A DNA stretch of 60,778 nt from Bacillota bacterium (lineage in GTDB: Bacteria; Bacillota; Clostridia; Oscillospirales; Feifaniaceae): assembly GCA_030705925.1 (NCBI GenBank), contig JAUZPM010000004.1, positions 1-60,778 on the forward strand, given 5' to 3'. The translations under genes and the position numbers were made by a program. Each line of letters begins with the position of its first letter. Within the stretch, counting starts at the first letter, position 1. A model generated the notes under the pieces. That model saw only the letters and a program-made list of their open reading frames with translations. It did not search any database and was not told the DNA's origin. Below are positions 19,014 to 34,166 of this stretch, piece by piece.

Positions 19014-20114
19014 CTATTCCATTAATAAAGGGAAATTAACTGGCTTAGTTGTTTCATAAAGCGGGCGCAGGTGATAACCAGCGTTCTGCATATAAGTAAT
19101 AAGTCCCGGAAGTATTATCGTAGCTGTATTTGTATTATTTACTAAAATAACCGAATTCCATTTAATTCTTTCAAGGTTGCGCTGTGTCATCAAAAGCTGG
19201 GTGGAAGGTTCTACATCACCGAATCGGGCTTCTGTAAATTCAATATTATACTTCCATGTTCTATAGCCGCTTTTAACGAGATCGGCATTAACACTGTCGG
19301 TATTATACTGAGATCCATGCCGCAGCATAACAAGACGTGATCGGGTGTATGTGAGTTTTTGCAGGATATCATTTAAGCGGTTGAATTCATCAGCGATTTG
19401 AGCTGACGTTAACCCCTGTTTTGCTTCAAAATCCGGCGAGAGCATAAGACCGATATCCTGCCCCTCTATTACAAGCTGACGCATAAGGGAAGCGTTGCTT
19501 TGAATCTGGTCGCCTGTAAAAAAGAATACCGCTTTACAGTTTGAATTGCGCAGAATCTTAAGCTGTGTTTGGGTATACTGAGACGTGCCGATTATACAGA
19601 GGTAAAAATTAGGATTATCAGTTTTGTTATTAAAATCAGATGGCATATTATGCATAAGCCGTTCTATATCACTGTCTGAAATCTGTGATGTTCTTGTCTT
19701 TATCCGATATATTCCTGGTGACGGCTCACTGAATATCCCCCCAAGCTCACTTACAACGAACAACGCGGGTATATATGTTATACCATTCTGAATCGGAACT
19801 TTTTTTTCATAGAATCTATTATCATAGGTAACTGCAATGTTATTTTCACGATAAAAACTTATAGACACCGTACCTTTATATACAGTTAGAGTATCTGTAA
19901 CTTCGTCGTATTTATAGTTGCCCCCGACAACTGCTAGGACAGTCTGAACAGGGAAGAAAACCTCATCATCAATAATTATTGGCTGTTCATTTGAAGGGAG
20001 GTATACAATGTCATCATTTTTAATAAAAGGCATGGTTGTATCAGCTGAAGGCGTAATAGTCAACAGCGAGCAAAATAAACATACCGTTAGAAAGTATGAA
20101 ACAGCTTTTTTCAA
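19014..20114 (-). CDS. Secreted copper-amine-oxidase-N plus degenerate NodB (polysaccharide deacetylase-like) protein
   Basis: The 366-residue exported protein begins with TTG behind GGGGTG. It has a signal peptide (about 1-24), a copper amine oxidase N-terminal-like domain (about 40-150, with PIIIDDEVFFPVQTVLAVVGG and IPALFVVSELGG) and a NodB-like barrel (about 165-366). KAVFFFTGDQIQSNASLMRQL corresponds to the 'ATFFV.G......P.L...' strand of deacetylases. The metal ligands are missing: no TFDDG-type aspartate pair is present, and the H(S/T)xxxH position reads GLMLSPDF. It is therefore unlikely to deacetylate, and may bind glycan or act as scaffold. It precedes murI in the same run. Confidence 0.75.
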   Translation of the reverse strand: MKKAVSYFLTVCLFCSLLTITPSADTTMPFIKNDDIVYLPSNEQPIIIDDEVFFPVQTVLAVVGGNYKYDEVTDTLTVYKGTVSISFYRENNIAVTYDNRFYEKKVPIQNGITYIPALFVVSELGGIFSEPSPGIYRIKTRTSQISDSDIERLMHNMPSDFNNKTDNPNFYLCIIGTSQYTQTQLKILRNSNCKAVFFFTGDQIQSNASLMRQLVIEGQDIGLMLSPDFEAKQGLTSAQIADEFNRLNDILQKLTYTRSRLVMLRHGSQYNTDSVNADLVKSGYRTWKYNIEFTEARFGDVEPSTQLLMTQRNLERIKWNSVILVNNTNTATIILPGLITYMQNAGYHLRPLYETTKPVNFPLLME

Positions 20115-20135
20115 CCAATCACCCCGAGGAATAGT

Positions 20136-20540
20136 TTAAAAATCCTTTAGCGGAATACCGTTTGAATCAACGTTTATTTCCTTTGCAAGAATCAAGATTC
20201 CCTCAATAAATCCCCAGATCGATCCTATTCCGCATGTAATAATTGTTATTATAATCTGCCAGACAGCACGGTTTGTAAACCCTAAATAAAAATTATGGAC
20301 ACCAAAACCACCCAAAAAGATACCGAAAAGACCAGCAGCGAGCCGTGATTTTGGCTCAGTATCAAAAGGAGATGTCTGAGAATGCGTGAAAACCTGACCA
20401 CAGCTTGTGCAGACTGCATCAGTTGGGCGAACTTCTTTACCGCAGTTATTACAATAATTATTGCCAAAACCGCGTGAAGCCCTACACCTGGGGCATACAT
20501 TCATATCGCCAATATCCAACCCACAGACTCTGCAAAACAT
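20136..20540 (-). CDS. Zinc-ribbon TM2-domain membrane protein
   Basis: The 134-residue protein has two N-terminal zinc-ribbon pairs (CRVCG...CPRC and CNNCG...CTSCG, residues 3-50), a polar linker, then a TM2 domain. The latter is a pair of membrane helices in AAGLFGIFLGGFGVHNFYLG and IITIITCGIGSIWGFIEGI, with the hallmark G-G-HxFYLG. The function of TM2 proteins in bacteria is not established. The start follows GGAGG. It is divergent from the deo operon and may share its 130-base promoter region. Confidence 0.88.
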   Translation of the reverse strand: MFCRVCGLDIGDMNVCPRCRASRGFGNNYCNNCGKEVRPTDAVCTSCGQVFTHSQTSPFDTEPKSRLAAGLFGIFLGGFGVHNFYLGFTNRAVWQIIITIITCGIGSIWGFIEGILILAKEINVDSNGIPLKDF

Positions 20541-20670
20541 AAAATACCTCCATTTTACACAAATAATTATATAGATAATATATAATCAAGTATATACGAA
20601 AATACCATGAAAAACAACGTTTATTTTCCTTATATAGTTGTTTATAATAAGGATATAAATAGCAAAATGT

Positions 20671-21855
20671 TTGGAAGTGAGCGGTATAAAAAGAGTTGTA
20701 TTAATTGTTCTTGACAGCGTAGGTATCGGGGCACTGCCGGATGCTTGTAAGTACAAAGATGAAGGAAGCAATACGATTGGTCATATTGCAAAAACATTAG
20801 GCTTAAATGTGCCAAATATGAGGATGCTGGGTCTTGCTAATATAGAAGCGGAAATAGGTCTTGAAAAAGTGCCTGAGCCTATTGGAGCATATGGTAAACT
20901 TGCAGAGGTATCTTCCGGAAAGGATACTACTACAGGACATTGGGAAATTGCGGGGATTAAGCTCGAAAAAGCATTTCCGACCTATCCAAACGGATTTCCT
21001 CCTGATATAGTAAATGCTTTGCAGAATGCATTTGAAACAAATATTTTGTGCAACAGTGTTGCATCCGGCACTGAAATTATTGCCCGGCTTGGCGATGAAC
21101 ATGTCAAAACAGGCTATCCAATTGTTTATACTTCTGCCGACAGTGTTTTGCAGATAGCAGCACATGAGGACATATATCCTCCTGAAAAGCTTTATGACCT
21201 GTGCCGAAAAGCTAGAAGTATAATGACTGGAGAACATGCAGTTGGCAGAATAATTGCACGACCTTTTACTGGAACGAGCGGTTCTTATACCAGAACTAAA
21301 AATAGGAGAGATTTTTCACTTAATCCAATTGCACCTACAGTGCTTGATGCTGCAGTTGAAAAGGGATACTCCGTCTGCGCTGTCGGTAAAATCGAAGATA
21401 TATTTGCCGGCAAGGGTATTACTAAATCAAACCATATATCTGGGAATAGCGCATGTATTGACGCAACTTTAGAATATATGAAGACGTCACGTGACGGAAT
21501 TATATTTACAAATCTTGTTGACTTTGATATGCTGTATGGGCATAGGAACGATGTTGTAGGGTATAAAAATGCCCTTGAATATTTTGATTCGCGAATTCCT
21601 GAATTAACAAAGTCTTTAGAAGATGACGACATCCTTCTTATAACGGCGGATCATGGCTGTGATCCAACAACCCCGAGCACTGATCACAGCAGAGAATATA
21701 TTCCTCTTCTAATCTTCGGCAAAAATGTTAAAAGCGGAGTTAATATAGGGACTAGAAAAACATTTTCAGATATAGCGGAAACGATTTCAGAGTATCTGGA
21801 CTTAAACAAGAGTTTCGGAGCGAAGAGCTTTTTAAATGAAATAAGGAGAAAGTAA
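20671..21855 (+). CDS. deoB: Phosphopentomutase
   Basis: DeoB interconverts (deoxy)ribose 1-phosphate and 5-phosphate, feeding nucleoside breakdown. This is an alkaline-phosphatase-superfamily enzyme with [15 protein letters not shown] (metal-binding Asp), the [13 protein letters not shown] loop with the phosphate-accepting Thr, and the late [19 protein letters not shown] metal site. The length of 394 is normal. The start is odd: no ATG lies in frame. TTG 20671, GTG 20677 or even AUA 20686 behind GGAAGTGAG are candidates. An out-of-frame ATG at 20667 reads MFGSERYK and would join RVVLIV if one A were lost from the A5 run at 20688-20692. It opens the deoBCD operon. Confidence 0.92.
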
Positions 21856-21857
21856 CT

Positions 21858-22526
21858 GTGACTAAATTCGAGTTGGCGAAATTTATAGATCATACGAATC
21901 TGCATGCCGAGGCGCTTCCTTCGGATATAGAAAGGCTATGCAGCGAAGCGGGAAAATATAACTTTGCTTCTGTTTGCATCAATCCAGTGTATGTAGCTCT
22001 TGCAGCAGAACTTCTTAAAAATAGCGATGTAAAAGTCTGCACAGTAATTGGATTCCCTCTTGGAGCGGGCACAGCGGCGTCAAAAGCGTTTGAAGCCGCA
22101 GATGCGGTTGATAACGGAGCTCAAGAACTCGACATGGTTATTAATATAGGGGCACTTAAATCAGGAAATTTAGGACAAGTTGAAGAAGAAATTAGGGCAG
22201 TTGTTCTTGCTGCGGACGGGAGAACTGTAAAAGTAATAATAGAAACGTGCCTTTTAACAGATGAGGAAAAAGTATCAGCCTGTTTAGCTGCCAAGAAAGC
22301 TGGGGCGGATTTTGTAAAGACATCAACAGGATTTTCGACAGGAGGTGCTACTCCTGAGGATATTTTACTAATGCGCAAAACGGTTGGGTCAGACTTTGGA
22401 GTAAAAGCTTCAGGAGGTATTCGCTCAGCTCAGGATGCAATTTTAATGATTAAGTCGGGAGCAAATAGAATAGGAACCAGCGCAGGTGTAAAAATCGTTG
22501 AAAGTTTTGAAGGTGAAATAATATGA
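21858..22526 (+). CDS. deoC: Deoxyribose-phosphate aldolase
   Basis: DeoC splits 2-deoxyribose 5-phosphate into glyceraldehyde 3-phosphate and acetaldehyde by a Schiff-base mechanism. The 222-residue TIM barrel shows [11 protein letters not shown] at the start, [11 protein letters not shown], and the Schiff-base lysine in [15 protein letters not shown], plus VKASGGIRS as phosphate-binding loop. It starts with GTG, two bases after the deoB stop and behind AAGGAGA, and its last codons overlap the deoD start (ATGA). Confidence 0.96.
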
Positions 22527-23221
22527 GTACTCATATTGAAGCTAAAAAAGGAGAAATTGTGGAATCAGTATTGATGCCTGGAGATCCTATGAGGGCTAAA
22601 TATATCGCTGAAAATTTTTTATCTGATATAATTTGTTACAATAATGTTAGGGGAATGTTGGGCTTCAGCGGTGTTTATCATGGAAAACGCGTATCGGTTC
22701 AGGGAAGCGGTATGGGAATGCCGTCTATCTCGATCTATGTAAATGAGCTGTTATCCGAGTATAAAGTGAACACTATAATCCGAGTTGGCACCTGCGGAGC
22801 TTTCTCAGAAAAGCTAAATCCTCGGGACATCGTTCTTGCAATGTCATGCTGTACAGACAGTTCACTATGTAAACGAATTTTTAAGGGATTAGATTACGCA
22901 CCGACAGCAAGTTTTAGTTTGCTAAAAAAAGCCGCGGAAATTGCTGAAAATTCTGAAAAGTGCTTTTCGGTGGGGACAATATTATCAACTGATACTTTTT
23001 ATCAGCCCGATCCTGATATGTGGAAGATTTGGAGAGATTACGGAGTGTTGGCAGTGGAGATGGAGACAGCGGCTCTATACACATATGCCGCAAAGTATAA
23101 AGCAAACGCACTCTCCATCCTTACTGTCAGTGATAGTTTGGTGACCGGTAACGAAACAACATCAAATGAGCGTGAAAAAACTTTTTCGGATATGGTGGAA
23201 ATTGCTTTGAAAATATTATAA
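22523..23221 (+). CDS. deoD: Purine-nucleoside phosphorylase, DeoD type
   Basis: This enzyme splits purine (deoxy)nucleosides with phosphate to base plus (deoxy)ribose 1-phosphate, the substrate of deoB. The 232 residues fit the hexameric DeoD class: [18 protein letters not shown] (phosphate loop), [36 protein letters not shown] (ribose-binding Glu) and [18 protein letters not shown] with the catalytic Asp. It ends the deoB-deoC-deoD operon. No clear terminator follows before the convergent gene. Confidence 0.96.
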
Positions 23222-23273
23222 TATTTTATAAATTATTTGTATTTTGCAATCACTAAATAGTTATATAGAAATA

Positions 23274-23726
23274 TTAATCTTTGGGATCTATTTCGTACTT
23301 TCTGATTAAGCTTTGGAGTTCATGCATATGATTGCGTGATTGGCTCATGTGATTTTCAACGAGATTATAGCTGTCCTTTTCAATGCCATCATATAATACT
23401 TTTTGAGCAGACTCGATATTTATTGTTTCTCCTAAATGTGCGCTTTTTAAGATTCCTATTGGCGTGTGTCCGGCCATTTTGCGCGCTGTATATGAAATAT
23501 CCTGCATTATGCCTGCCATTCCGCTGCCCTTAAGAGGCTGACCGCCAAGATCTTTAATTTTTTGGGCGATCTGATCAGAACTATTGGTATAATCTTTTTT
23601 AAATTGCTCAAACTTTTCTTTTAATTCGGGTTTTGATGTATCCTTAACAAATCTATCATAATTTTCAACGCCTAATTCAACACTGCGAAGAAGCTGTTGT
23701 AGTTTTTTTATTGCTTTCTCATCCAT
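23274..23726 (-). CDS. Ferritin-like helical protein of the DUF2383 type
   Basis: The 150-residue, all-helical protein has the length and heptad pattern of a four-helix bundle (KKLQQLLRSVELGVENYDRF, LKEKFEQFKKDYTNSSDQIAQKI, NHMSQSRNHMHELQSLI). It resembles DUF2383/PA2169-type ferritin-like proteins. A complete set of carboxylate and histidine iron ligands is not obvious, so metal binding is uncertain. A good AAGGAGA site precedes the start. It is a single gene convergent with deoD. Confidence 0.65.
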   Translation of the reverse strand: MDEKAIKKLQQLLRSVELGVENYDRFVKDTSKPELKEKFEQFKKDYTNSSDQIAQKIKDLGGQPLKGSGMAGIMQDISYTARKMAGHTPIGILKSAHLGETINIESAQKVLYDGIEKDSYNLVENHMSQSRNHMHELQSLIRKYEIDPKD

Positions 23727-23861
23727 CTTTATCTCTCCTTTGCAGTTTTATTTTGCCCTGAAAGATATATAAAAAACTAGGTAACTTCTGAAAAGAATTA
23801 TTAAAAATTTTCAAAGCGAATAAATTAGGTGGATTTTTTTGTATAAGTTTAAAGGAATAAT

Positions 23862-24236
23862 ATGAGATTTAAAGTTGGAGACATTATAATTATCGCAATT
23901 GTTCTTTTTTCAGCACTTTTTACCGCAATTGCATTTAGACCCCACCAAGGGGATTCATATGCTGAGATATTGATAAATGGTAAAAAAGTTGAGGATATTC
24001 AGCTTACGGGAGCAAGCGATTCTGAAAAGAAAGTTGAATATGGCGACCTATCTTTCGATATAAGTATAAAAGATCAAAAAATTGCTATCGTTCACATAAA
24101 ATGTCCTAACCAGATTTGCGTGAAAACAGGGTATATTGGACAAGTTGGACAGGTTATAGCCTGTGTTCCCAATCATATTATAATAAAAATAGTAAACAAA
24201 AGCGGAGACGGGGAGGTTGATGCTGTTGTCAAATAG
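23862..24236 (+). CDS. eetA: NusG-domain-II membrane-anchored protein, EetA-like
   Basis: The 124 residues begin with an N-terminal membrane anchor (about 7-27). An extracellular NusG_II domain follows, with its hallmark KCPNQICVKTG (Cys near 81 and 86) and VIACVPNHIIIKI. The same architecture is found in EetA of the Listeria extracellular electron transfer (EET) locus, where it is needed for electron export. It overlaps the following EetB-like gene by 17 bases and leads a same-strand run with ndh2, polyprenyl synthase, lipoprotein and apbE. Assignment rests on domain plus context; NusG_II proteins also precede Rnf-type genes in other clostridia. Confidence 0.75.
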   Translation: MRFKVGDIIIIAIVLFSALFTAIAFRPHQGDSYAEILINGKKVEDIQLTGASDSEKKVEYGDLSFDISIKDQKIAIVHIKCPNQICVKTGYIGQVGQVIACVPNHIIIKIVNKSGDGEVDAVVK

Positions 24237-24783
24237 TAAGAGCTTTAAATCTGCACTATCTCCCCAAAAAATTGCGATTATAGCAGTTTTGATTTCAATG
24301 GCTCTTGTTTTATCGGTGGTTGAACGAATGTTTCCCCCTATCGTGCCTGTTCCCGGCATAAAAATCGGGCTTCCGAATATTATGACTTTGTTTGCAATCT
24401 TTTATCTCGACACTTTATCGGCTTTTATTATAGTCGTTCTTCGCTGCATTATCGCAGCAGGATTTTTTGGAGGAGTTACTGTTTTTGCTTTTTCACTTGC
24501 TGGCGGATTATGTGCGCTTTTAATCATGAGACTTTTAAAAAGTTTGCAGAACAGATATGTTTCCTATATTGGAATCAGCATCGCTGGTGCAGCCAGCCAT
24601 AATCTTGGACAAGTTCTTGTAGCTTCATTTTTTTTACAGTCGTTTAATATATTCGCATATTTACCGTTACTCCTGCTAGGCTCAATCGTAACTGGAATTA
24701 TAACGGGATCATTGTATGCTATGGTCGACGGAAAGCTAATGCATATTCCTTATTTTAAGGGGATTAAAGAACATTATTTATAA
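24220..24783 (+). CDS. eetB: Gx-transporter / heptaprenyl-synthase-component-I-like membrane protein, EetB-like
   Basis: The integral membrane protein (187 residues from ATG 24220; TTG 24217 is also possible) has about five to six helices. The conserved VPVPGIKIGLPNIMTLFAIFYLD and GGVTVFAFSLAGGLCALLIM segments belong to the Gx transporter family, which resembles ECF S-components. Databases often label it 'heptaprenyl diphosphate synthase component I', though it is not the enzyme. In Listeria the pair EetA-EetB supports extracellular electron transfer. Translational coupling to eetA is likely, as the GGGAGG site sits inside eetA. Confidence 0.78.
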   Translation: MLLSNSKSFKSALSPQKIAIIAVLISMALVLSVVERMFPPIVPVPGIKIGLPNIMTLFAIFYLDTLSAFIIVVLRCIIAAGFFGGVTVFAFSLAGGLCALLIMRLLKSLQNRYVSYIGISIAGAASHNLGQVLVASFFLQSFNIFAYLPLLLLGSIVTGIITGSLYAMVDGKLMHIPYFKGIKEHYL

Positions 24784-24826
24784 TTATCCAGGGAGATGTA
24801 CAAACTATTTTGAGGGAGGAATAACT

Positions 24827-26836
24827 ATGTCTAAGAAGGTTTTGATAGTTGGAGCAGGTTATGCCGGTATTTCCGCTGCACTTACATTCAGCAAACGCAA
24901 GAAAAATACTGATGTTGATGTGACTGTTATCGATAGAAATAATTATCAGACATTGATGACCGAACTTCACGAAGTTGCTGGTAACCGAGTTGAACAGGAT
25001 GCAATTAAGGTTCCTCTTAATAGGGTATTTCAGTATACAGATATTAAACATTATAGTGATGATATCAAATCGTTTGACTTTGAAGCAAATGTTGTAAAAG
25101 GGGCCGAAAAAGAATATAAATACGATTATTTGATTTTAGCTCTTGGCAGCCAGACTAATTATTATGGTATCCCCGGGTTAAAAGAAAATTCATTTTCTCT
25201 TTGGTCTTATGATGACGCAGTTAGAATTCGGGAACATATAAAGATGTGCTGTGAACGTGCCCGTGGGGAAGAAGATGAAGCGAGGCGCCGCTCACTGCTG
25301 ACATTTGCGGTTGCAGGTGCCGGTTTCACAGGAATTGAAATGATCGGTGAGCTTATTCACTGGATAAGAACACTATCATCAACTTATAATCTGAACAAAA
25401 AAGAATTTCGCCTTATACTATGTGACGCGCTGCCAAATGTTTTGGCACAGGCTTGCAAGGATAATCAGGAGCGTGCGCTCAGGTATCTTAAGAAAAAAGG
25501 CGTTGAAGTAATGCTGGGATCACCTGTCAAAGAGGCTACCTCCGAAGGATTCAGATTTGGGGATCAATTCATTCCTACGAGAACTCTGATATGGTGCGCA
25601 GGGATCAGAGCCTCTGATGAAGTAGATGGGATGGGAGTTGAAGTTGTAAATCGGAGTGCTCGAACGAAAGTTGACGAGTACAACAGACTCCCAAAGTACA
25701 GAAATGTATACTCTGTAGGAGACATGGCAGGTACGCTTGATAAAGAGGGCAAAATGTATCCTGCTATGGTTGAACATGCCCACCACACCGGGCATCAGGC
25801 AGCTCTCAATATATTACGTGATATTCGCGGTGAAGGACTTAAGAAGACTGAAGTTAACATGCGCGGGTATATGTTAAGTATCGGCAATTATTTTTATCTT
25901 AATGAAATGATGGGCAAACGCTTTCCTGGTTGGATAGGCATGTTTGCAAAATATTTTGTTAACTCTAATCACATGCTGACGGTCGCCGGATTTTGGGGAG
26001 TGGCAAAGTATCTCTACCATGAATCTGTCGAAAGACGACAAAGAAGGATTTTCCTTGAAAGACACTGGTCTGAGAAAATGCAGGCATGGTGGCTGCTTCC
26101 TCTGAGGCTATTTACAGGTGGTTATTGGATATACGAAGCTGTTAAAAAGATCGGTGAAGGCTGGATGGATAAGCCTGTTATGGGCTTTATGAAAAGCACT
26201 CTGAATATTGGGGATTTACCAACGACTCAAGTATTCTATAGAATTAATCTCGGAATATTCAGATGGGGAGTTTATGCTGAAAAGCTTGCCCCGGCAGCTC
26301 CTGATACCGCAAGCAGCGCAACAACAGCAACTACAAGCGCGGTTGCAGCTGCTGTTTCAAATGCTCCTGCTGCAACATCATCGGCAACGACAGCGGTTAC
26401 GGCGGCCGCGTCTGCTGTGTCAGATAAACTTGGAGAAACGTTTTCTAAACTTGATTTTGCTCCGCTAAATTGGGTAACAACCCATTGGATACTAGGAAGC
26501 GATGCATCCACTCTATTTTTCCAACGAATGATTATAATAATCGAAATCCTGTTAGGGCTTGCCATCATAGCCGGTGCATTTACCTTTATTGCATCAGGCA
26601 TAAGCATTTTGCTGAATATCAATTTTATGGCTACCACCGGTTTATATTTAAGTGTTTGGTGGTTCCCAGTTGCATTATTCGCATTGATGGGGGGCGCGGG
26701 ACGAGCTTTTGGGCTTGATTACTATATAATGCCTTATCTCAATAATGTTTGGGAAAGATGGATCAAGGGCGGGAAATTCTCTCTCTCTATCCCGAGGGCT
26801 TTTGATCGACATTCTAATTTTGACGAACTGCTGTAA
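24827..26836 (+). CDS. ndh2: Type II NADH dehydrogenase with membrane C-terminal extension (Ndh2-like)
   Basis: The 669-residue flavoprotein begins with the FAD Rossmann motif VLIVGAGYAGISAA (about 4-17). The NADH-binding motif is FAVAGAGFTGIEMIGEL (about 161-177), and VYSVGDMAG is the second FAD site. Ordinary NDH-2 is about 400 residues. Here a C-terminal half is added: WWLLPLRLFTGGYWIYEAV (near 422), an Ala/Thr/Ser linker (about 486-535), and two or more strong membrane helices (about 565-630). Ndh2 of the Listeria EET locus has a comparable membrane tail. It would oxidise NADH and reduce a membrane quinone. The start follows GAGGGAGG. Confidence 0.85.
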   Translation: MSKKVLIVGAGYAGISAALTFSKRKKNTDVDVTVIDRNNYQTLMTELHEVAGNRVEQDAIKVPLNRVFQYTDIKHYSDDIKSFDFEANVVKGAEKEYKYDYLILALGSQTNYYGIPGLKENSFSLWSYDDAVRIREHIKMCCERARGEEDEARRRSLLTFAVAGAGFTGIEMIGELIHWIRTLSSTYNLNKKEFRLILCDALPNVLAQACKDNQERALRYLKKKGVEVMLGSPVKEATSEGFRFGDQFIPTRTLIWCAGIRASDEVDGMGVEVVNRSARTKVDEYNRLPKYRNVYSVGDMAGTLDKEGKMYPAMVEHAHHTGHQAALNILRDIRGEGLKKTEVNMRGYMLSIGNYFYLNEMMGKRFPGWIGMFAKYFVNSNHMLTVAGFWGVAKYLYHESVERRQRRIFLERHWSEKMQAWWLLPLRLFTGGYWIYEAVKKIGEGWMDKPVMGFMKSTLNIGDLPTTQVFYRINLGIFRWGVYAEKLAPAAPDTASSATTATTSAVAAAVSNAPAATSSATTAVTAAASAVSDKLGETFSKLDFAPLNWVTTHWILGSDASTLFFQRMIIIIEILLGLAIIAGAFTFIASGISILLNINFMATTGLYLSVWWFPVALFALMGGAGRAFGLDYYIMPYLNNVWERWIKGGKFSLSIPRAFDRHSNFDELL

Positions 26837-26862
26837 ATACGTAATGTAACGGAGTGATACCC

Positions 26863-27834
26863 TTGTGGCGACAGATTGACAGTGAATTTGCCGAACTGAT
26901 AAATGAGTTCGAATGCTTTTTAGAGAAGCAATTGCCGCAAAAAGGCGGTTTTTTAAGTGAGGTTTCTAAAAAAGTAATACAATCTGGAGGAAAACGCCTT
27001 CGGCCGGCATTTACTATCCTGTTTTCAATGATGGGTGAAAAAGACATCTTCACTGATAAAGAATACAAAGAACGTGTTTTTCATACTGCTGCTGCAATCG
27101 AGATTTTGCATACCGCGACTTTAATACATGATGATATTATCGACAGCGCTGATACACGGCGCGGGAAACCGACTGTTTCATGTAGTTACGGTACAAGTAT
27201 GGCTGTTTATACAGGGGATTTCTTACTGGTGCAGACAATGCTTTTGCTTTCTAAGTCTGGGCTTGATATAGAGTATTTGAATACGGCAGCTAAAGGGATG
27301 GAAGCAGTTTGCCTTGGAGAGGTCGATCAGTATTATCAAAAATATAAGATAACGACTGTATATAGTTATCTTAAGAGAATCATAAAGAAAACCGCTTTGC
27401 TGTTTTCAGTGTCAGCGACTCTTGGAGCCAGATTGTCAGGGCTTTCTGATGAAACGATAAAAAATGCCGCGCATTTTGGCCTGAATTTCGGAACTGCTTT
27501 TCAGCTTAGAGACGATATGCTGGATCTTTCATCAAATAAAAATGATACTGGAAAACCCGTTTTGAAAGATTTAAAGGACGGAGTCATTACACTCCCGCTT
27601 ATCCTGACTGCTAGGGACAATAAAAAGATCAGGTCGGAAATAGAGCAGTTTTTCGGTTCGAGAGATGATGCATTTGCTGACAGCATATTAAAGGATGTAA
27701 TAGAGGCTGGCGGTGCTTTGAAAATGCAGGGCATACTTGAAAAATATGTAATCCGAGCAAAAAAGAGACTTAACATGATGCCTGAAAGCAAAGCTAGGAA
27801 TATTCTTGCTGATATTGTAAATGTTATATACTAA
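26863..27834 (+). CDS. trans-Polyprenyl diphosphate synthase (HepT/DmkB-like)
   Basis: This class I prenyl elongase makes the isoprenoid chain of quinones. SGGKRLRPAF is the isopentenyl diphosphate site. The first Asp-rich motif is LIHDDIIDSADTRRGKPT (DDxxD). GDFLLVQT follows, and the second Asp-rich motif is FQLRDDMLDLSSN. The length (about 323) fits a medium- or long-chain synthase. GTG 26854 is in frame but lies inside GGAGTG; TTG 26863, eight bases after that site, is a better start. Position next to eetB and ndh2 suggests demethylmenaquinone side-chain synthesis as for Listeria DmkB. The chain length cannot be told from sequence alone. Confidence 0.88.
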   Translation: MWRQIDSEFAELINEFECFLEKQLPQKGGFLSEVSKKVIQSGGKRLRPAFTILFSMMGEKDIFTDKEYKERVFHTAAAIEILHTATLIHDDIIDSADTRRGKPTVSCSYGTSMAVYTGDFLLVQTMLLLSKSGLDIEYLNTAAKGMEAVCLGEVDQYYQKYKITTVYSYLKRIIKKTALLFSVSATLGARLSGLSDETIKNAAHFGLNFGTAFQLRDDMLDLSSNKNDTGKPVLKDLKDGVITLPLILTARDNKKIRSEIEQFFGSRDDAFADSILKDVIEAGGALKMQGILEKYVIRAKKRLNMMPESKARNILADIVNVIY

Positions 27835-27892
27835 TAGAGATATTTTATTAATATGACCCTGTTATGGGGATGAGCTTGAGAGGAGTTTTAAA

Positions 27893-28441
27893 ATGAAAAA
27901 ATTTGTAGCGACTACACTTGCACTGTTGCTTTTAGCAGGTTGTGCATCAGCGTCTAACAAGAAATCGGCAAATATAAAGACCGGACTTGGTGTGATAACT
28001 TCAATTGAGAGTTCAACAGATGCTACTGCCGGTAAAGACGGAAATGCGCAGGTTGACTCGGTTATAGCTGCTGTAACTCTTGACGCAGACGGGAAGCTTG
28101 CAAAGGTTTATCTTGACAGTGCCCAAACTAAAATAGGATTTAACGCAACTGGCTTACTGACAACAGATAAAACATCCGAGGTTAAGACAAAGAAGGAAAT
28201 AGGTACAGGTTACGGCATGGTAAAAGCGTCGAAAATCGGAAAAGAGTGGTATCAGCAGGCGGAGGCGTTTGAAAGCTGGGCGACAGGTAAGACTGTTGAC
28301 GAGGTTAATAAACTTAAGGTTAAACAAACAGATGCCCAGCATACAGCTGTTCCAGATGTTGCTGAATTAACTTCAAGCGTAACAATCTCAGTAGGTGACT
28401 TCCAGAAAGCAATTGCCAAGGCAGCGGCTAACGCAAAATAA
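27893..28441 (+). CDS. FMN-binding-type lipoprotein (PplA-like candidate)
   Basis: The 182-residue lipoprotein has the signal MKKFVATTLALLLLAGC and lipobox Cys17, so it sits on the outer face of the membrane. The mature part resembles the FMN_bind fold: GKLAKVYLDSAQTKIGFNATG, then YGMVKASKIGKEWYQQAEAF and WATGKTVDEVNKLK. Near the C-terminus the line DVAELTSSVTISVGDFQKAI takes the place of the flavinylation motif D..(S/T)GA(T/S), with Thr164 as likely FMN acceptor. An ApbE flavin transferase is encoded directly downstream. Listeria PplA is larger with two such domains; this one has a single domain. It is therefore a candidate electron shuttle, not proven. Confidence 0.75.
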   Translation: MKKFVATTLALLLLAGCASASNKKSANIKTGLGVITSIESSTDATAGKDGNAQVDSVIAAVTLDADGKLAKVYLDSAQTKIGFNATGLLTTDKTSEVKTKKEIGTGYGMVKASKIGKEWYQQAEAFESWATGKTVDEVNKLKVKQTDAQHTAVPDVAELTSSVTISVGDFQKAIAKAAANAK

Positions 28442-28449
28442 TATAACTG

Positions 28450-28476
28450 GCGGGCGGTCAAAGGCCGCCCGCTTAT
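28450..28476 (+). terminator. G+C-rich hairpin between the lipoprotein and apbE genes
   Basis: GCGGGCGG and CCGCCCGC form an 8-bp stem closing TCAAAGG, followed by a broken T-tract (TTATTT). It could be a partial terminator or an mRNA-stabilising end that makes the lipoprotein message more abundant than apbE. Confidence 0.65.
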
Positions 28477-28489
28477 TTATGGTGATAAA

Positions 28490-29569
28490 ATGAAACGACT
28501 GCTTGCATTTATCTTAATATTTGTTATTTTAATTTCATCATCCGGATGCCGGTTGGGCGGACCCAAGAAGTACTCTGTTGAGTTTTTCGGGGTTTTTGAT
28601 ACTGTCACTCAGGTAATAGGCTATGCTGAAAGCCAGTCAAAATTTGATTATTTCAGCAATAAAATAGAAAAAAGGCTTCAGGATCTAACTAAACTTTATG
28701 ATATTTATAATACTTACGAGGGAATAAGCAATCTCAAAACGATAAACGACAATGCCGGGAAGCAGCCTGTACATGTTGATAAAGATATAATAAATATGCT
28801 TAAGTTCAGTAGGGATAAATATGCCTTGACAGAAGGCCGTGTTAATATTGCGCTTGGCGCAGTGTTATCAATTTGGCATGATTATCGTGAGGCGGGGATA
28901 AGTGACCCAAAGAATGCAAAGTTGCCGCCGATGGACAAACTTGAGGATGCAAATAAACACACAAATATTAATGACGTTGTTATTGATGAGACTAATGACA
29001 CAGTATTTCTGCGTGATCCTGAGATGAGTCTTGATGTAGGTGCGATAGCAAAAGGATATGCTGTTGAGATTGTTGCAAAGGAAATTGAAGCTGAAGGTTT
29101 TACATCTGGAGTAATCAGCGTTGGAGGAAATGTAAGGGTCATAGGACATCCTTCTGATGGTGTTCGTAAACGCTGGGGAATCGGTTTACAGGATCCAAAA
29201 GCCGAGATTAACGGAACTCAGAATCTTCTTGATACGGTTTTTGTAAAAGACAGCTCCGTTGTTACAAGCGGGGATTATCAGCGGTATTATATAGTCGATG
29301 GGAAAAGATATAACCATATCATTGATCCGGATACATTGATGTCGGCTGATAAATTCAGAGCAGTCTCGGTAGTTACGGCAGATTCGGGTCTAGCAGATGC
29401 CTTATCTACATGCCTTTTTATTTTGGACTATGAAGACGGCCTTAAACTTGTCCAATCAATACCCGGGGTCGAGGCTTGCTGGGTCATGAAAGATGACAGC
29501 ATTAAAGCAACTGACGGGATGAAAAAAATAATGAAAAAACTTGGAGGAGCCACAGGTTCGGAGGGTTAA
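28490..29569 (+). CDS. apbE: FAD:protein FMN transferase (ApbE/FmnB-like lipoprotein)
   Basis: ApbE moves FMN from FAD onto a Thr or Ser of target proteins outside the membrane, with Mg2+. The 359 residues start with a lipoprotein signal ending ISSSGC (Cys20). Family motifs are VFDTVTQV, LDVGAIAKGYAVE (flavin and Mg site), GVISVGGNVRVIG, VVTSGDYQRYY, and HIIDPDT with metal-ligand residues. The gene follows the FMN-binding lipoprotein, its probable substrate, as fmnB and pplA do in Listeria. ApbE also serves RnfG, so a wider role is possible. Confidence 0.93.
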   Translation: MKRLLAFILIFVILISSSGCRLGGPKKYSVEFFGVFDTVTQVIGYAESQSKFDYFSNKIEKRLQDLTKLYDIYNTYEGISNLKTINDNAGKQPVHVDKDIINMLKFSRDKYALTEGRVNIALGAVLSIWHDYREAGISDPKNAKLPPMDKLEDANKHTNINDVVIDETNDTVFLRDPEMSLDVGAIAKGYAVEIVAKEIEAEGFTSGVISVGGNVRVIGHPSDGVRKRWGIGLQDPKAEINGTQNLLDTVFVKDSSVVTSGDYQRYYIVDGKRYNHIIDPDTLMSADKFRAVSVVTADSGLADALSTCLFILDYEDGLKLVQSIPGVEACWVMKDDSIKATDGMKKIMKKLGGATGSEG

Positions 29570-29571
29570 AA

Positions 29572-29913
29572 ATGAAAGAAGTTCTTAAAAAGTTTTCTGA
29601 GCGTTTTCCTTCTTTCTCTATGCTTTTTTATATCGATGTTGTCCTGCCTGCTATACTCTATTTAATAGCTCGTTTTTACAGTGGAATGTCTGCTCTTTTC
29701 CACAATTATGGATTGTTTGTTATGCGCCCCATCCCTAATTTCAAAAGCTATACAGGCATCGCGGGGACTCTTATCTGCCTATATTTTATTTTTAAAGCAG
29801 TTATAAAAAGAAACTGGGTTGACGCTGTTTTAACAATCTTTTTAACCATTGCTGTATTTGCTTATTTTTATTTCAAATTAAATTACATGGTTTCGGGTAC
29901 ATTAACATTTTGA
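29572..29913 (+). CDS. Small membrane protein of unknown function at the end of the electron-transfer cluster
   Basis: The 113-residue protein has three likely membrane helices (about 17-36, 61-78, 84-103). It is joined tightly to apbE, two bases after its stop and with the GGAGGG site inside apbE. A polar loop FHNYGLFVMRPIPNFKSYTG separates helix one from the rest. I do not recognise the family, and it is not one of the known Listeria EET components. Its coupling to apbE suggests a part in flavinylation or in membrane electron flow. Confidence 0.7.
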   Translation: MKEVLKKFSERFPSFSMLFYIDVVLPAILYLIARFYSGMSALFHNYGLFVMRPIPNFKSYTGIAGTLICLYFIFKAVIKRNWVDAVLTIFLTIAVFAYFYFKLNYMVSGTLTF

Positions 29914-30022
29914 AACTAAAAAATTTACAGTTTGTTTCGCATATTTAAAGTGCGTGTCCCGTTCTTTTTTTTACTTGCTCTCAATATACTGTATAGAGAT
30001 TAGGATACGGAGGTCTAAAACG

Positions 30023-31012
30023 GTGGAAAGAGAGCGATTTTCGCGCGGTGCCGAGGTAAGACACCGCCGCGGCAAAGTGCCGGAAACGGCTCAAAAAGGC
30101 GGGCTTTTTTGGCTTCAAATGTTTCTGAGCTTGCTTCTTATTATCGCCGGATTTCTTATACATCACGGAAAGTCGGAACAGGTAAAAGCAGTTTTTGCAA
30201 ATAGCCTTACTAAAAGCATGGATTTGTCTGACGTCAGTACGGCGGTTAACGATTTTGTTAATAAAACACCAGTAATAAAAGATATTTTCGGGGAATCTGC
30301 CGTAACTGTTTTTAGCAACAAGAAAAAGGATGATTCTAATGCAGATGAACAAGCTTTTGATCCCGAAGGCAGTGAAACAACTGAGCAAATGCCGCCGGTG
30401 ACTAAAGATGGGGCCCAGGCTGTTCCAACATCGGCGGAAGGTATGGGCGGTGCTACGGACACAGGCGGGTATATGCAGTATCTTAATATAGATGCGGGTC
30501 AAACGAAACAGGCTGAACAGCCACCACCAGCCTCGCCGTCGCCGCCTGCAGCGGCGTCACCTGAGACACAGGCACCTGCCGCTCCTGCTATCCCCGCTAA
30601 TGTAGTTACAACTAAAGTCAATACAGGGCTGAAACTAAAAATGCCTATTACTGGAACAATAACATCTCCTTTCGGTTATCGAATACACCCTACAGCAAAG
30701 GTTGAGTTATTTCATTATGGACTTGATATTGCTGCAAATACAGGAACCATTATACATGCTGCGGGTAAAGGCACCATTGAAGATACAGGCACAAATAAGA
30801 GTTACGGCAATTACGTGCTTATAAAACATAACGATGACCTATATACTTTTTATGGGCACTGCAGTGAGGTGCTTGTAAAAAAAGGAGCAAAGGTTTCTTT
30901 TTCAACTAAAATCGCGAAAGTTGGAAGCACAGGTATTTCAACAGGCCCGCATCTGCATTTTGAAATCAGGTATAAAGATAAGTACATAAATCCACAGCTC
31001 AATGCTTCCTAG
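30023..31012 (+). CDS. spoIVFA: M23 (LytM) membrane protein, SpoIVFA-like
   Basis: The 329-residue protein from GTG 30023 follows CGGAGG; an upstream extension to 29954 is unlikely. It has a basic cytoplasmic start, one membrane helix (about 34-53, LQMFLSLLLIIAGFLIHHG) and a long Pro/Ala/Thr-rich linker. A C-terminal LytM/M23 domain (about 210-325) keeps the zinc-site pattern FHYGLDIA (HxxxD) and GPHLHFEI (HxH). Followed by a SpoIVFB-type protease, this is best read as SpoIVFA, which holds SpoIVFB inactive in the mother cell until pro-sigma-K processing. The intact zinc ligands leave open some peptidoglycan activity of its own. Confidence 0.78.
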   Translation: MERERFSRGAEVRHRRGKVPETAQKGGLFWLQMFLSLLLIIAGFLIHHGKSEQVKAVFANSLTKSMDLSDVSTAVNDFVNKTPVIKDIFGESAVTVFSNKKKDDSNADEQAFDPEGSETTEQMPPVTKDGAQAVPTSAEGMGGATDTGGYMQYLNIDAGQTKQAEQPPPASPSPPAAASPETQAPAAPAIPANVVTTKVNTGLKLKMPITGTITSPFGYRIHPTAKVELFHYGLDIAANTGTIIHAAGKGTIEDTGTNKSYGNYVLIKHNDDLYTFYGHCSEVLVKKGAKVSFSTKIAKVGSTGISTGPHLHFEIRYKDKYINPQLNAS

Positions 31013-31027
31013 GCGGGGGTGCAGAAG

Positions 31028-31618
31028 ATGAAGGCAAAACTTCATATAAGCCCTCTTTTTTTTGGCATTACGGGGTTCTATATACTTGCAGACGGAACGA
31101 TATATATTGTTTACATAATTTTGTCGGCACTGCTTCATGAGGCGGCTCATATTTGGATGATTAAACGCAGCGGGGAAGGCGTTAAATCAATAGATATGAA
31201 ACCGTTTGGCGTTAACATAATATTAAAAGAAGATCATATTTTATCCTATAAAAGAGAAATACTTATTTCTTTAGCGGGTCCCTTGGTAAATCTTGCGGTT
31301 GCCACCATTTTTTTATTAATAAATAAGTTCATATATTATTCTGAAGCAGGTATGTTTATTTCACTGATAAATTTCGCTCTGGCGGGTGTAAACATGCTTC
31401 CGATATATCAGCTTGATGGTGGGCGTATCATCAAAAATCTTCTTTTAATGAAATTAGAACCGTCGACTGCTGATAAGATATGTTTTCTTATTTCAATAGC
31501 GTGTCTAACGCCCATTTTATACATTGGGGGCATTCTTTTATATAAAACTGGCCATAATTTTTCACTTTTAATAATCGGTTTTTACCTGCTGATTTGCCTT
31601 GTTATAAAATCAAATTGA
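31028..31618 (+). CDS. spoIVFB: M50 site-2 intramembrane metalloprotease, SpoIVFB-like
   Basis: The 196-residue polytopic membrane protease has the catalytic zinc motif LLHEAAHIW (HExxH, near residue 36) in a helix, and the third ligand in NMLPIYQLDGGRI (LDGG, near 137). SpoIVFB cleaves pro-sigma-K within the membrane during sporulation. The ATG at 31028 is eight bases after GGGGG; the GTG at 31019 overlaps that site. It lies 15 bases behind the SpoIVFA-like gene. Small M50 proteases have other roles too, but this pairing is typical. Confidence 0.82.
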   Translation: MKAKLHISPLFFGITGFYILADGTIYIVYIILSALLHEAAHIWMIKRSGEGVKSIDMKPFGVNIILKEDHILSYKREILISLAGPLVNLAVATIFLLINKFIYYSEAGMFISLINFALAGVNMLPIYQLDGGRIIKNLLLMKLEPSTADKICFLISIACLTPILYIGGILLYKTGHNFSLLIIGFYLLICLVIKSN

Positions 31619-31643
31619 ATTTATTAGATAAAAACGTTATAAT
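31615..31643 (+). promoter_or_regulatory. Sigma-A-type promoter for the radical-SAM pair
   Basis: TTGAAT (31615-31620), exactly 17 bases, then TATAAT (31638-31643), about 36 bases before the TTG start of the next gene. It begins within the end of spoIVFB, so a vegetative promoter separates the radical-SAM genes from the sporulation pair. Confidence 0.65.
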
Positions 31644-31678
31644 AATATATTATGATCATTTTTGAAAGGGAGTTTTGA

Positions 31679-33532
31679 TTGACAGTTTTTGAAAAGATAT
31701 TGTTCAATGTCCAAAAGCCATCCAGATATACGGGTGGAGAACTGAACAGTGTTGTAAAAAATAAAGAGGATATTTCTCTACGATTTGCGTTTTGTTTTCC
31801 TGATGTTTATGAGGTCGGGATGTCCCATCTTGGCATGAAAATAATATACAGTCTTTTAAATTCCAGGCCCGACGTTTGGTGCGAACGGGCCTTTTGCCCG
31901 TATGAGGATATGGAAGAAGAGATGAAAAAAGCGGGATTGCCGCTTTATGGACTTGAAAGCCGTGATTCTCTTTCTTATTTTGATATTTTAGGTTTTACGC
32001 TTCAAACTGAATTATCTTATACTAATATACTTCATATGCTGCGTTTATCTAATATTCCTCTTAAAAGTACCGATAGGAATGAGGATTATCCTTTGATTAT
32101 AGCAGGCGGCCCTTGCGCATATAATCCAGAGCCGCTTTACAGCTTTTTTGACTTATTCGTGCTTGGCGAAGGTGAAGAAGTCTTATTAGAGCTTGCGGAT
32201 CTTGTTATCCTCTCAAAACGAGAGGGATGGACTAAGGACAAGCTTTTGAAAGAAGCAGCGCAAATAGGCGGAATTTATGTCCCTAAATTTTATGAAGTTG
32301 ATTATAACGAGGATGGCACAATAAAAAACCGCCGTGTTACTCAAGAAGGAATACCTGCTGTTGTTCAAAAGCGTGTTGTAAAAGACCTCAATACAATGTT
32401 TTATCCTGAAAGTTTTATTGTACCTTTCGGTGAAATCATACACGACCGCATAATGCTCGAGGTATTTAGAGGGTGTATTCGCGGCTGCCGCTTTTGCCAG
32501 GCCGGAAACATTTACCGGCCAATTCGTGAAAAAAGCCCTGAGGTTTTGAATGAACAGGCTAAAAAGCTTATTTCAAGTTCGGGCTATGACGAAATATCAC
32601 TGACTTCACTGAGCACTAGTGATTATACTAAATTAGAACCTTTAACTGACACGCTTCTCGACTGGTGTGAACAGGATATGATAAGCCTGTCGCTTCCTTC
32701 GCTTCGTGTTGATAATTTTTCAACAGAGCTTATGGAAAGGGCTCAGAAAGTTCGAAAAACTGGACTTACTTTTGCCCCTGAAGCTGGTACCCAGCGAATG
32801 CGCGACATTGTTAATAAAAATGTAACTGAGGAACAGCTGATGCATACCTGCCGCATTGCTTTCAGCGGCGGATGGCATACAATCAAGCTTTATTTTATGA
32901 TCGGTCTCCCACATGAAACAATGGAAGATGTTGAAGGTATTGCCAGTCTTGCCGAGCGTGTTATTGATAATTATTTTGAAGGTATCAGGCTTGGCGAGTA
33001 CCGTAAAGGAGCTAGAGGAATAAAGGTAACTGTCAGTGTTTCTTCATTTGTTCCAAAGCCGTTTACGCCGTTTCAGTGGGCGGCCCAGGATACTATGGAA
33101 CTCCTTGAGGAAAAGCAGCAGGAACTTAGATCTTCAATTAAAAACAAACACATTTCGCTTTCCTGGCATGAACGGAAAATCAGCTTTCTTGAAGCTGTGT
33201 TCGCAAGGGGTGACCGCCGTCTTGCAGATGTAATTGAAACAGCCTATGAAAACGGCGCGAAATTTGACAATTGGGACGAGCACCTGAAATTTGATGTATG
33301 GATGGATGCGTTAAAAATCCATGGTTTATCTCCTGAGTTTTATGCAAATCGAAAGCGCCCTTATGAGGAGATACTTCCGTGGTCGTTTATCGATATTGGC
33401 GTAACAGAAAAGCATCTGCGCCTAGAGGCTGAAAGGGCAGAAGAAGTAATAACGACTCCCGACTGCAGAACGAACTGCAGAGGGTGCGGGGCGAACCGCC
33501 TTTGCGGAGGATTTTGCGATGCAAAAAATTAG
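31679..33532 (+). CDS. B12-binding-fold radical SAM protein, TIGR03960 family
   Basis: The 617-residue protein begins with TTG behind GGGAG. The N-terminal cobalamin-binding-like fold includes FCFPDVYEVGMSHLGMKII. The radical SAM core carries the cluster motif FRGCIRGCRFCQAG (CxxxCxxC, near residue 265) and the SAM-site line TFAPEAGTQRMR. A C-terminal Cys-rich end, CRTNCRGCGANRLCGGFC, may hold another cluster. The reaction is unknown. The family always pairs with a TIGR03936 protein, and here that gene overlaps by 14 bases. The pair is often near ribosomal L21 and RNase G genes, suggesting an RNA or translation role; that neighbourhood is missing here. Confidence 0.88.
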   Translation: MTVFEKILFNVQKPSRYTGGELNSVVKNKEDISLRFAFCFPDVYEVGMSHLGMKIIYSLLNSRPDVWCERAFCPYEDMEEEMKKAGLPLYGLESRDSLSYFDILGFTLQTELSYTNILHMLRLSNIPLKSTDRNEDYPLIIAGGPCAYNPEPLYSFFDLFVLGEGEEVLLELADLVILSKREGWTKDKLLKEAAQIGGIYVPKFYEVDYNEDGTIKNRRVTQEGIPAVVQKRVVKDLNTMFYPESFIVPFGEIIHDRIMLEVFRGCIRGCRFCQAGNIYRPIREKSPEVLNEQAKKLISSSGYDEISLTSLSTSDYTKLEPLTDTLLDWCEQDMISLSLPSLRVDNFSTELMERAQKVRKTGLTFAPEAGTQRMRDIVNKNVTEEQLMHTCRIAFSGGWHTIKLYFMIGLPHETMEDVEGIASLAERVIDNYFEGIRLGEYRKGARGIKVTVSVSSFVPKPFTPFQWAAQDTMELLEEKQQELRSSIKNKHISLSWHERKISFLEAVFARGDRRLADVIETAYENGAKFDNWDEHLKFDVWMDALKIHGLSPEFYANRKRPYEEILPWSFIDIGVTEKHLRLEAERAEEVITTPDCRTNCRGCGANRLCGGFCDAKN

Positions 33533-34166
33533 AATAAGGTTTGAAAAAACCGGCAATGCACGCTATATATCACATCTTGACCTTATGAGGACAATGATGC
33601 GCGCACTTAGAAGAGCAGGAATTAGCGTTAAATATACAGAGGGATTTAATCCTCATCCTCACCTGGTTTTTGGAAATCCTCTGTCACTTGGGCATGAAAG
33701 CGTTTGTGAATTATGTGATGCTGAAATCAAAGATGATATTGAAGCAAACGAAATCAAAGATAGGCTCAATGCCGTTATGCCGAAGGGACTTTGGGTGCGT
33801 GCGGTTACTGAGCAGATCATGCGGCAGAGCGAAATTGCAATGGCAAAGTATCGGATAGATATAGAAACAGAGACATCTGCAGAAGAAATCAAGCAGTTAT
33901 TTTCGAGAGATACAATAGAACTAGACAAAAAAGGAAAAGCAGGAGTAAAAAAAGTGAATATTGTTCCGCTAATCCACGCTTTTTATGCGCAGGATGGCGG
34001 CAACGGGGTTATTATTTCAACGGTTTTGGCTGCCGGAAGTTCTGAAAACCTTAATCCAGAATTTATTGTCAAGGCTTGTCAAAATGAAATACCATCTATG
34101 AAGGATTCTTTTGCAAAATATACAAGACTGGCTTTTTATAATATAGATGAAAAAATTTTTGAATAA
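33519..34166 (+). CDS. TIGR03936 family, radical-SAM-associated protein (DUF2344)
   Basis: The 215-residue protein shows RIRFEKTGNARYISHLDLMRTMMRALRRAGISVKYTEGFNPHP at its start (given in parts: RYISHLDLMR and GFNPHPHLVFGNPLSLG are the family hallmarks). It has no signal or membrane segment. It overlaps the end of its radical SAM partner, which implies coupled translation and probably a complex. The biochemical role is not known. Confidence 0.9.
   Translation: MQKIRIRFEKTGNARYISHLDLMRTMMRALRRAGISVKYTEGFNPHPHLVFGNPLSLGHESVCELCDAEIKDDIEANEIKDRLNAVMPKGLWVRAVTEQIMRQSEIAMAKYRIDIETETSAEEIKQLFSRDTIELDKKGKAGVKKVNIVPLIHAFYAQDGGNGVIISTVLAAGSSENLNPEFIVKACQNEIPSMKDSFAKYTRLAFYNIDEKIFE

Follow-up and report, generated by a model that had tools for sequence, protein, structure and literature searches.

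A clostridial extracellular electron transfer locus without dmkA, and a candidate importer of a menaquinone precursor

The extracellular electron transfer (EET) locus of Listeria monocytogenes consists of ndh2, eetA, eetB, fmnA, fmnB, pplA, dmkA and dmkB. Its EetB binds FAD as the S-component of an ECF exporter and, together with FmnA, is required for the flavinylation of PplA; RibU imports flavins, and a clean deletion of eetA has no phenotype (PMC9973259). Lactiplantibacillus plantarum, which is unable to make the quinone head group itself, needs a precursor from outside for its EET, 1,4-dihydroxy-2-naphthoate (DHNA) (PMC9888254, PMC10746273). The exchange of soluble menaquinone precursors has been proposed, the transport genes of which "remain to be annotated"; the same work proposed the prenylation and decarboxylation steps that end the futalosine pathway and left their order open (PMC4746308). 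Growth that depends on menaquinone has been shown in gut bacteria, in a study that described the transporters as not yet known (PMC5738691).

Herein, we analyzed a stretch of 60,778 nucleotides (the window) from the draft genome of a clostridial bacterium of the family Feifaniaceae (assembly GCA_030705925.1, contig JAUZPM010000004.1). The original prediction placed in it a complete EET locus of the Listeria type.

The EET locus and its gene products

All seven predicted open reading frames were found on the same strand at the predicted positions (Table 1), and six of them were assigned to EET parts. The Pfam scores of EetA, EetB, Ndh2, DmkB and ApbE were each far above the family cut-off, and the start of eetB overlaps the end of eetA. 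The block is bordered on one side by deoB-deoC-deoD and a ferritin-like gene, and on the other by an M23/M50 (SpoIVFA/SpoIVFB-like) peptidase pair. A riboswitch search of the window gave no match.

Table 1. Positions of the features discussed in the text. Coordinates refer to the window unless a locus is named.
Feature	Position	Strand	Basis or remark
eetA (NusG domain II protein)	23862..24236	+	Pfam PF07009 NusG_II, 82.5 bits; sole copy in the genome
eetB (Hpre_diP_synt_I / Gx transporter family), ECF S-component type FAD exporter subunit	24217..24783	+	PF07456, 143.8 bits; function from PMC9973259
ndh2 (NADH dehydrogenase, Ndh2-type; alanine-rich linker, C-terminal membrane tail)	24827..26836	+	PF07992 Pyr_redox_2, 123.4 bits
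Quinone-site motif of Ndh2	25737-25830		Compared with other EET-type Ndh2
dmkB-type long-chain polyprenyl diphosphate synthase (HepT-like)	26854..27834	+	PF00348 polyprenyl_synt, 210.4 bits
pplA-like one-domain lipoprotein, candidate FMN-acceptor Thr164 in ELTSSVT	27893..28441	+	Lipobox, motif, homology to two-domain lipoproteins
GC-rich hairpin between pplA and fmnB	28449..28473	+	Centroid -22.2 kcal/mol, z -4.0; no clear T-run
fmnB-type FAD:protein FMN transferase (ApbE lipoprotein)	28490..29569	+	PF02424, 229.5 bits
Small membrane protein, no family	29572..29913	+	Starts 2 nt past fmnB
The two riboswitches of contig C10	L011:7556-7656 and L011:15387-15470	-	
U32 protein and aminotransferase pair	L211:12488-15713, L167:11199-14411, L117:12467-15624, L123:6017-9246		
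Lipoprotein with FMN_bind and FAD_binding_2 (Clostridium drakei)	L211:3103-5028		Flavinylated reductase type

The window shares with Listeria a single block of genes on one strand that encode a tailed Ndh2, EetA, EetB, DmkB, FmnB and a PplA-like lipoprotein; this likeness is one of the parts list, FmnB being the sole Listeria protein compared directly. In contrast to Listeria, the locus has no dmkA, no fmnA (ECF-T) was found among the open reading frames of window positions 20000-34000, PplA has one domain rather than two, and the quinone head group is apparently finished by MqnP, MqnL and MqnM, encoded elsewhere in the genome together with a putative importer. Judged by its genes, the locus is an EET-type module, but it is short of the complete Listeria set. 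The predicted identity thus held, with Ndh2 and its tail, EetA, EetB, DmkB, PplA and FmnB lying next to one another, an arrangement also seen in three further genomes of the order, whereas the predicted completeness did not.

The absence of both dmkA and a RibU-type transporter from the locus had also been predicted correctly. In addition, NCBIfam named no RibU among the six ECF S-components of the genome. Since Listeria EetB itself exports FAD and RibU takes flavins up (PMC9973259), the lack of RibU in the locus is of no importance.

These three further genomes (G048, G081 and G010) carry full EET loci in the same gene order. Between dmkB and eetA each has a gene resembling a prenyltransferase, and none of the three has MqnL. 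In the two of them that were scanned, this prenyltransferase-like gene is nearest to 1,4-dihydroxy-2-naphthoate polyprenyltransferase, i.e. dmkA. Seven further loci of the order (L056, L057, L058, L062, L065, L068 and L072) have PplA, FmnB and EetA/EetB close together and neither Ndh2 nor DmkB nearby; electrons must reach PplA by another entry in these genomes.

Ndh2 continues for about 340 residues past the Pyr_redox_2 domain and has FAD and NAD motifs. Its sequence is divergent, with 36-40% identity to the Ndh2 proteins of other EET loci. The quinone-site motif reads VEHAHHTG, against VE(N/S/A)A-(E/M/L)-(Q/H/S) in other EET-type Ndh2 proteins, which is possibly a change at the quinone site. 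In the trees of Ndh2 and DmkB, the window sequences formed long branches and both clustered with part of the Mqn-type loci, a grouping from which we draw no conclusion. The top NCBIfam match of DmkB was GerC3_HepT (221 bits, under its cut-off). Among solved FMN transferases, FmnB matched 1vrm of T. maritima at 1.1e-38 and 7esa/7f39 at 1.7e-37; 7F39 is Listeria FmnB (PMC12052999).

The PplA-like lipoprotein, which has the lipobox LLLLAGC, had no match in Pfam or NCBIfam. In a sample of 197 genomes of the order, 20 others had homologues with 30-53% identity, mostly two-domain proteins of about 345 aa and most beside ApbE, whereas the window copy has one domain. Its ELTSSVT aligns to the ApbE motif, D-x-x-[S/T]-G-A-[S/T] (PMC12052999), in which D, G and A are replaced here by E, S and V, making Thr164 a candidate FMN acceptor. 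A structure predicted from three sequences was too poor for use (pLDDT 55). The single match to PplA in plasmid records was an Acetoanaerobium record, and the FMN_bind matches of the genome lie outside the EET locus on contigs C5 and C3.

The seventh gene was, as predicted, a small membrane protein to which no family could be assigned (best Pfam match 18.2 bits, sub-threshold). BLAST found no homologue of it in the compared EET and mqn loci either, and for these two reasons it was left out of the module.

A quinone gap and an mqn cluster on a second contig

The contig is unbroken across the locus, and the place of dmkA, between dmkB and eetA, is vacant. A dmkA encoded elsewhere was not found: the one UbiA-type prenyltransferase of the whole genome is MqnP-type and lies on contig C10, in the gene order mqnL-mqnP-mqnM-lipoprotein binding protein (SBP)-ABC ATPase-permease. 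MqnL scored 652 bits against a curated cut-off of 496. MqnP passed the subfamily model TIGR01475 and failed the stricter MqnP exception models, and MqnM passed the UbiX subfamily models.

Searches of the genome with PF02621 (MqnA and MqnD), CofH_C (MqnC and MqnE) and MenB each gave no match. Given that MqnP, MqnL and MqnM are present, the genome holds the last steps of the futalosine pathway and none of the tested earlier ones. Compared with the described pathway (PMC4746308), it has the terminal enzymes MqnP, MqnL and MqnM, all adjacent, and instead of MqnA, MqnC, MqnD and MqnE it has a linked SBP-ABC transporter. The original prediction was to fall if the genome had no quinone pathway; searches with these models indeed found no genes for de novo synthesis of the head group, but MqnP, MqnL and MqnM with a linked ABC importer are there. 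The genome is a draft, 95% complete and in 115 contigs, and the absence of a gene may be due to chance. The EET locus and the mqn cluster lie on different contigs.

The mqn cluster region on C10 is flanked by two riboswitches: one of the tetrahydrofolate class ahead of a FolT-type ECF gene, the other of the c-di-GMP-I class, preceding the gene of a large secreted protein.

Recurrence of the cluster and properties of its binding protein

A search of 391 genomes of the class with the window genome's SBP found relatives in 38 other genomes. The mqn genes were linked to the SBP in 18 of the 20 loci first examined (L104-L123), usually in the same order, and weaker SBP relatives (at most 32% identity) had no linked mqn genes. 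By PF02621 search, no credible MqnA or MqnD was present in the window genome or in the 18 other cluster genomes; 15 of these 19 genomes are at least 90% complete. The PF02621 matches in G304, G208, G310, G360, G391, G430 and G547 were rejected as MqnA or MqnD, as they are lipoprotein binding proteins beside ABC permeases.

An SBP profile run against 84,980 named species, a sample that overlaps in part with that of the class, gave 238 relatives, of which 80 loci were fetched. Outside the Negativicutes, mqn genes were found in 49 of 55 SBP loci, all three of them in 34. Of the six loci without mqn genes, three come from contigs of less than 8 kb, and a fourth, L222, begins 1.6 kb ahead of the match. 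Among the Negativicutes, mqn neighbours occurred at 1 of 22 SBP loci. The same SBP is carried there by Sporomusa, Pelosinus and Selenomonas (L148-L161, L182, L184 and L191-L206), mostly with ABC genes, but in Selenomonas mostly without them.

Ndh2 and/or DmkB were encoded within about 10 kb in 22 of the 49 mqn-bearing SBP loci, often along with EetA, EetB and either FmnB or an FMN-binding lipoprotein. Such fused loci occur, for example, in Clostridium ganghwense, C. aestuarii, C. drakei, Maledivibacter halophilus, Marinisporobacter, Vallitalea, Petroclostridium and Fervidicola ferrireducens. None of the 80 SBP loci, complete genomes included, had dmkA; each compared EET locus has either dmkA or mqnLPM with the importer. 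By gene content, the window genome is of the mqnLPM-importer type of EET, split between two contigs. Elsewhere, e.g. in Anaerocolumna and Thermoanaerobacterium, the mqn-importer cluster has no EET genes nearby, indicating that the importer follows mqnLPM rather than EET.

Two other observations were made at these loci. First, in about 20 of the 80, a U32-family protein (~640 aa) and a class III aminotransferase (~424 aa) are encoded side by side near the SBP, mqn or EET genes; this pair, whose role might be in quinone modification or precursor synthesis, is absent beside the C10 cluster of the window genome. In addition, the C. drakei locus encodes a lipoprotein of the flavinylated reductase type directly before Ndh2-EetA-EetB-DmkB-FmnB-SBP-ABC, which suggests an extracytosolic reductase as the electron acceptor of that organism.

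The SBP relative from Anaerocolumna was modelled from 40 sequences (pLDDT 92). The modelled fold is that of the SsuA, TauA and HMP binders and of the PQQ-binding PqqT, and also that of MqnD. The lipobox cysteine was invariant in the first 18 sequences, so the SBP is taken as a secreted binding protein and not as an MqnD-like enzyme. Importers of the SsuA/TauA/ThiY type and PqqT share the fold and the ABC subunit types with the C10 transporter; the SBP itself has only 13-21% identity to solved binding proteins and belongs to a separate, mqnLPM-linked subfamily. All 40 relatives have two invariant arginines, which might suit a carboxylate ligand, in a fold that binds many ligands. A secreted binding protein with ABC subunits, as would be expected of a hypothetical menaquinone-precursor importer, was found linked to mqnLPM.

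The imported substrate is probably 1,4-dihydroxy-6-naphthoate. Without MqnA, MqnC, MqnD and MqnE, only the last soluble intermediate would be usable, which favours this compound over futalosine and its derivatives. MqnP, MqnL and MqnM belong to the futalosine branch and therefore imply the 6-carboxy isomer of the naphthoate. Since the genome has no genes to make the naphthoate, the SBP-ABC transporter probably imports what other organisms have made. The dependence on an outside precursor resembles that of L. plantarum, whose precursor is DHNA, whereas the window genome has the enzymes of the futalosine branch with a candidate importer linked to them.

Proposed pathway and its alternatives

We lean towards an EET variant that has no dmkA and in which MqnP, MqnL and MqnM complete demethylmenaquinone from imported naphthoate. 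The SBP-ABC transporter would import 1,4-dihydroxy-6-naphthoate made by other organisms. MqnP would prenylate it, with a chain presumably supplied by DmkB, and MqnL would decarboxylate it. UbiX proteins supply prenyl-FMN, and MqnM would provide this cofactor to MqnL. Ndh2 would then pass electrons from NADH to the membrane quinone, reducing demethylmenaquinone to demethylmenaquinol, from which they would reach flavinylated PplA on the outer face and finally an external acceptor. EetB, with an ECF energising module encoded elsewhere, would export FAD, and FmnB would attach FMN to PplA. The electron flow, the substrate, the direction of import and the joint working of the two clusters in the window genome are what we infer. 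Several points count against this reading: the mqn neighbours at a single one of the 22 Negativicutes SBP loci, the divergent Ndh2, the split between contigs, the draft state of the genome, and an MqnL that occurs in no other of the 197 genomes of the order. For the broader proposal, that mqnLPM and SBP-ABC constitute a stand-alone salvage unit for 1,4-dihydroxy-6-naphthoate which is spread through many clostridia and repeatedly replaces dmkA in EET loci and would be the first menaquinone head-group importer, we consider the chances evenly balanced.

An unlikely alternative is that mqnLPM finish a self-made head group from an undescribed route, perhaps involving the U32 protein and the class III aminotransferase, while the ABC transporter imports something else. 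UbiU and UbiV of O2-independent ubiquinone synthesis are U32 proteins, and the recurrence of the pair near the SBP fits such a route. However, the pair does not adjoin the clusters of the window genome, Anaerocolumna or Thermoanaerobacterium, whereas the SBP-ABC genes do, and import is the simpler reading of a lipoprotein binding protein beside the last pathway steps.

The module could also feed an envelope redox reaction, e.g. an extracytosolic reductase, rather than the reduction of iron, minerals or a partner cell. The flavinylated FAD reductase upstream of the same genes in C. drakei L211 speaks for this, but in the window a PplA-like carrier is part of the locus and a reductase of this kind does not adjoin it, and we regard this version as quite unlikely; it would alter the acceptor only and leave the pathway unchanged.

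It is very unlikely that the system is ordinary Listeria-type EET, where the assembly would have lost dmkA along with the men genes (or DHNA uptake) and mqnLPM would serve another purpose. The incomplete, fragmented assembly would allow such a loss. Against it, the dmkA slot is empty in an unbroken contig, MqnP, MqnL and MqnM already do the job, and dmkA is missing from all 80 SBP loci, complete genomes included.

Finally, as MqnL was found in no other of the 197 genomes of the order, contig C10 had to be checked as a contaminant, an origin so unlikely that we rejected it: its proline-tRNA ligase (ProRS) is the only full-length copy of the genome and is closest (72-76%) to genomes of the same family and order, and the tetranucleotide correlation with the genome is 0.96 for C10 and 0.89 for its mqn part, whereas loci of other genomes reach no more than 0.78. 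Transfer into the window genome, or retention in it alone, probably accounts for the mqn cluster.

We found no paper in the open literature, earlier notice elsewhere being possible, that joins mqnLPM or UbiD/UbiX/UbiA to EET genes, and the main text of a flavinylation survey (PMC8238504) does not mention UbiD/UbiX/UbiA. The points of interest are the apparent quinone replacement in EET and the candidate precursor importer. The conserved SBP beside the three terminal enzymes, in genomes without the upstream ones, is a concrete candidate for such an importer. If finishing demethylmenaquinone from an imported naphthoate is the correct reading, many clostridia regarded as fermenters without quinones would take up a precursor from a neighbour, turn it into demethylmenaquinone and discharge electrons with this quinone. 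Quinone cross-feeding would then be hard-wired into electron export, with a bearing on the iron reduction, syntrophy and cultivation of such bacteria.
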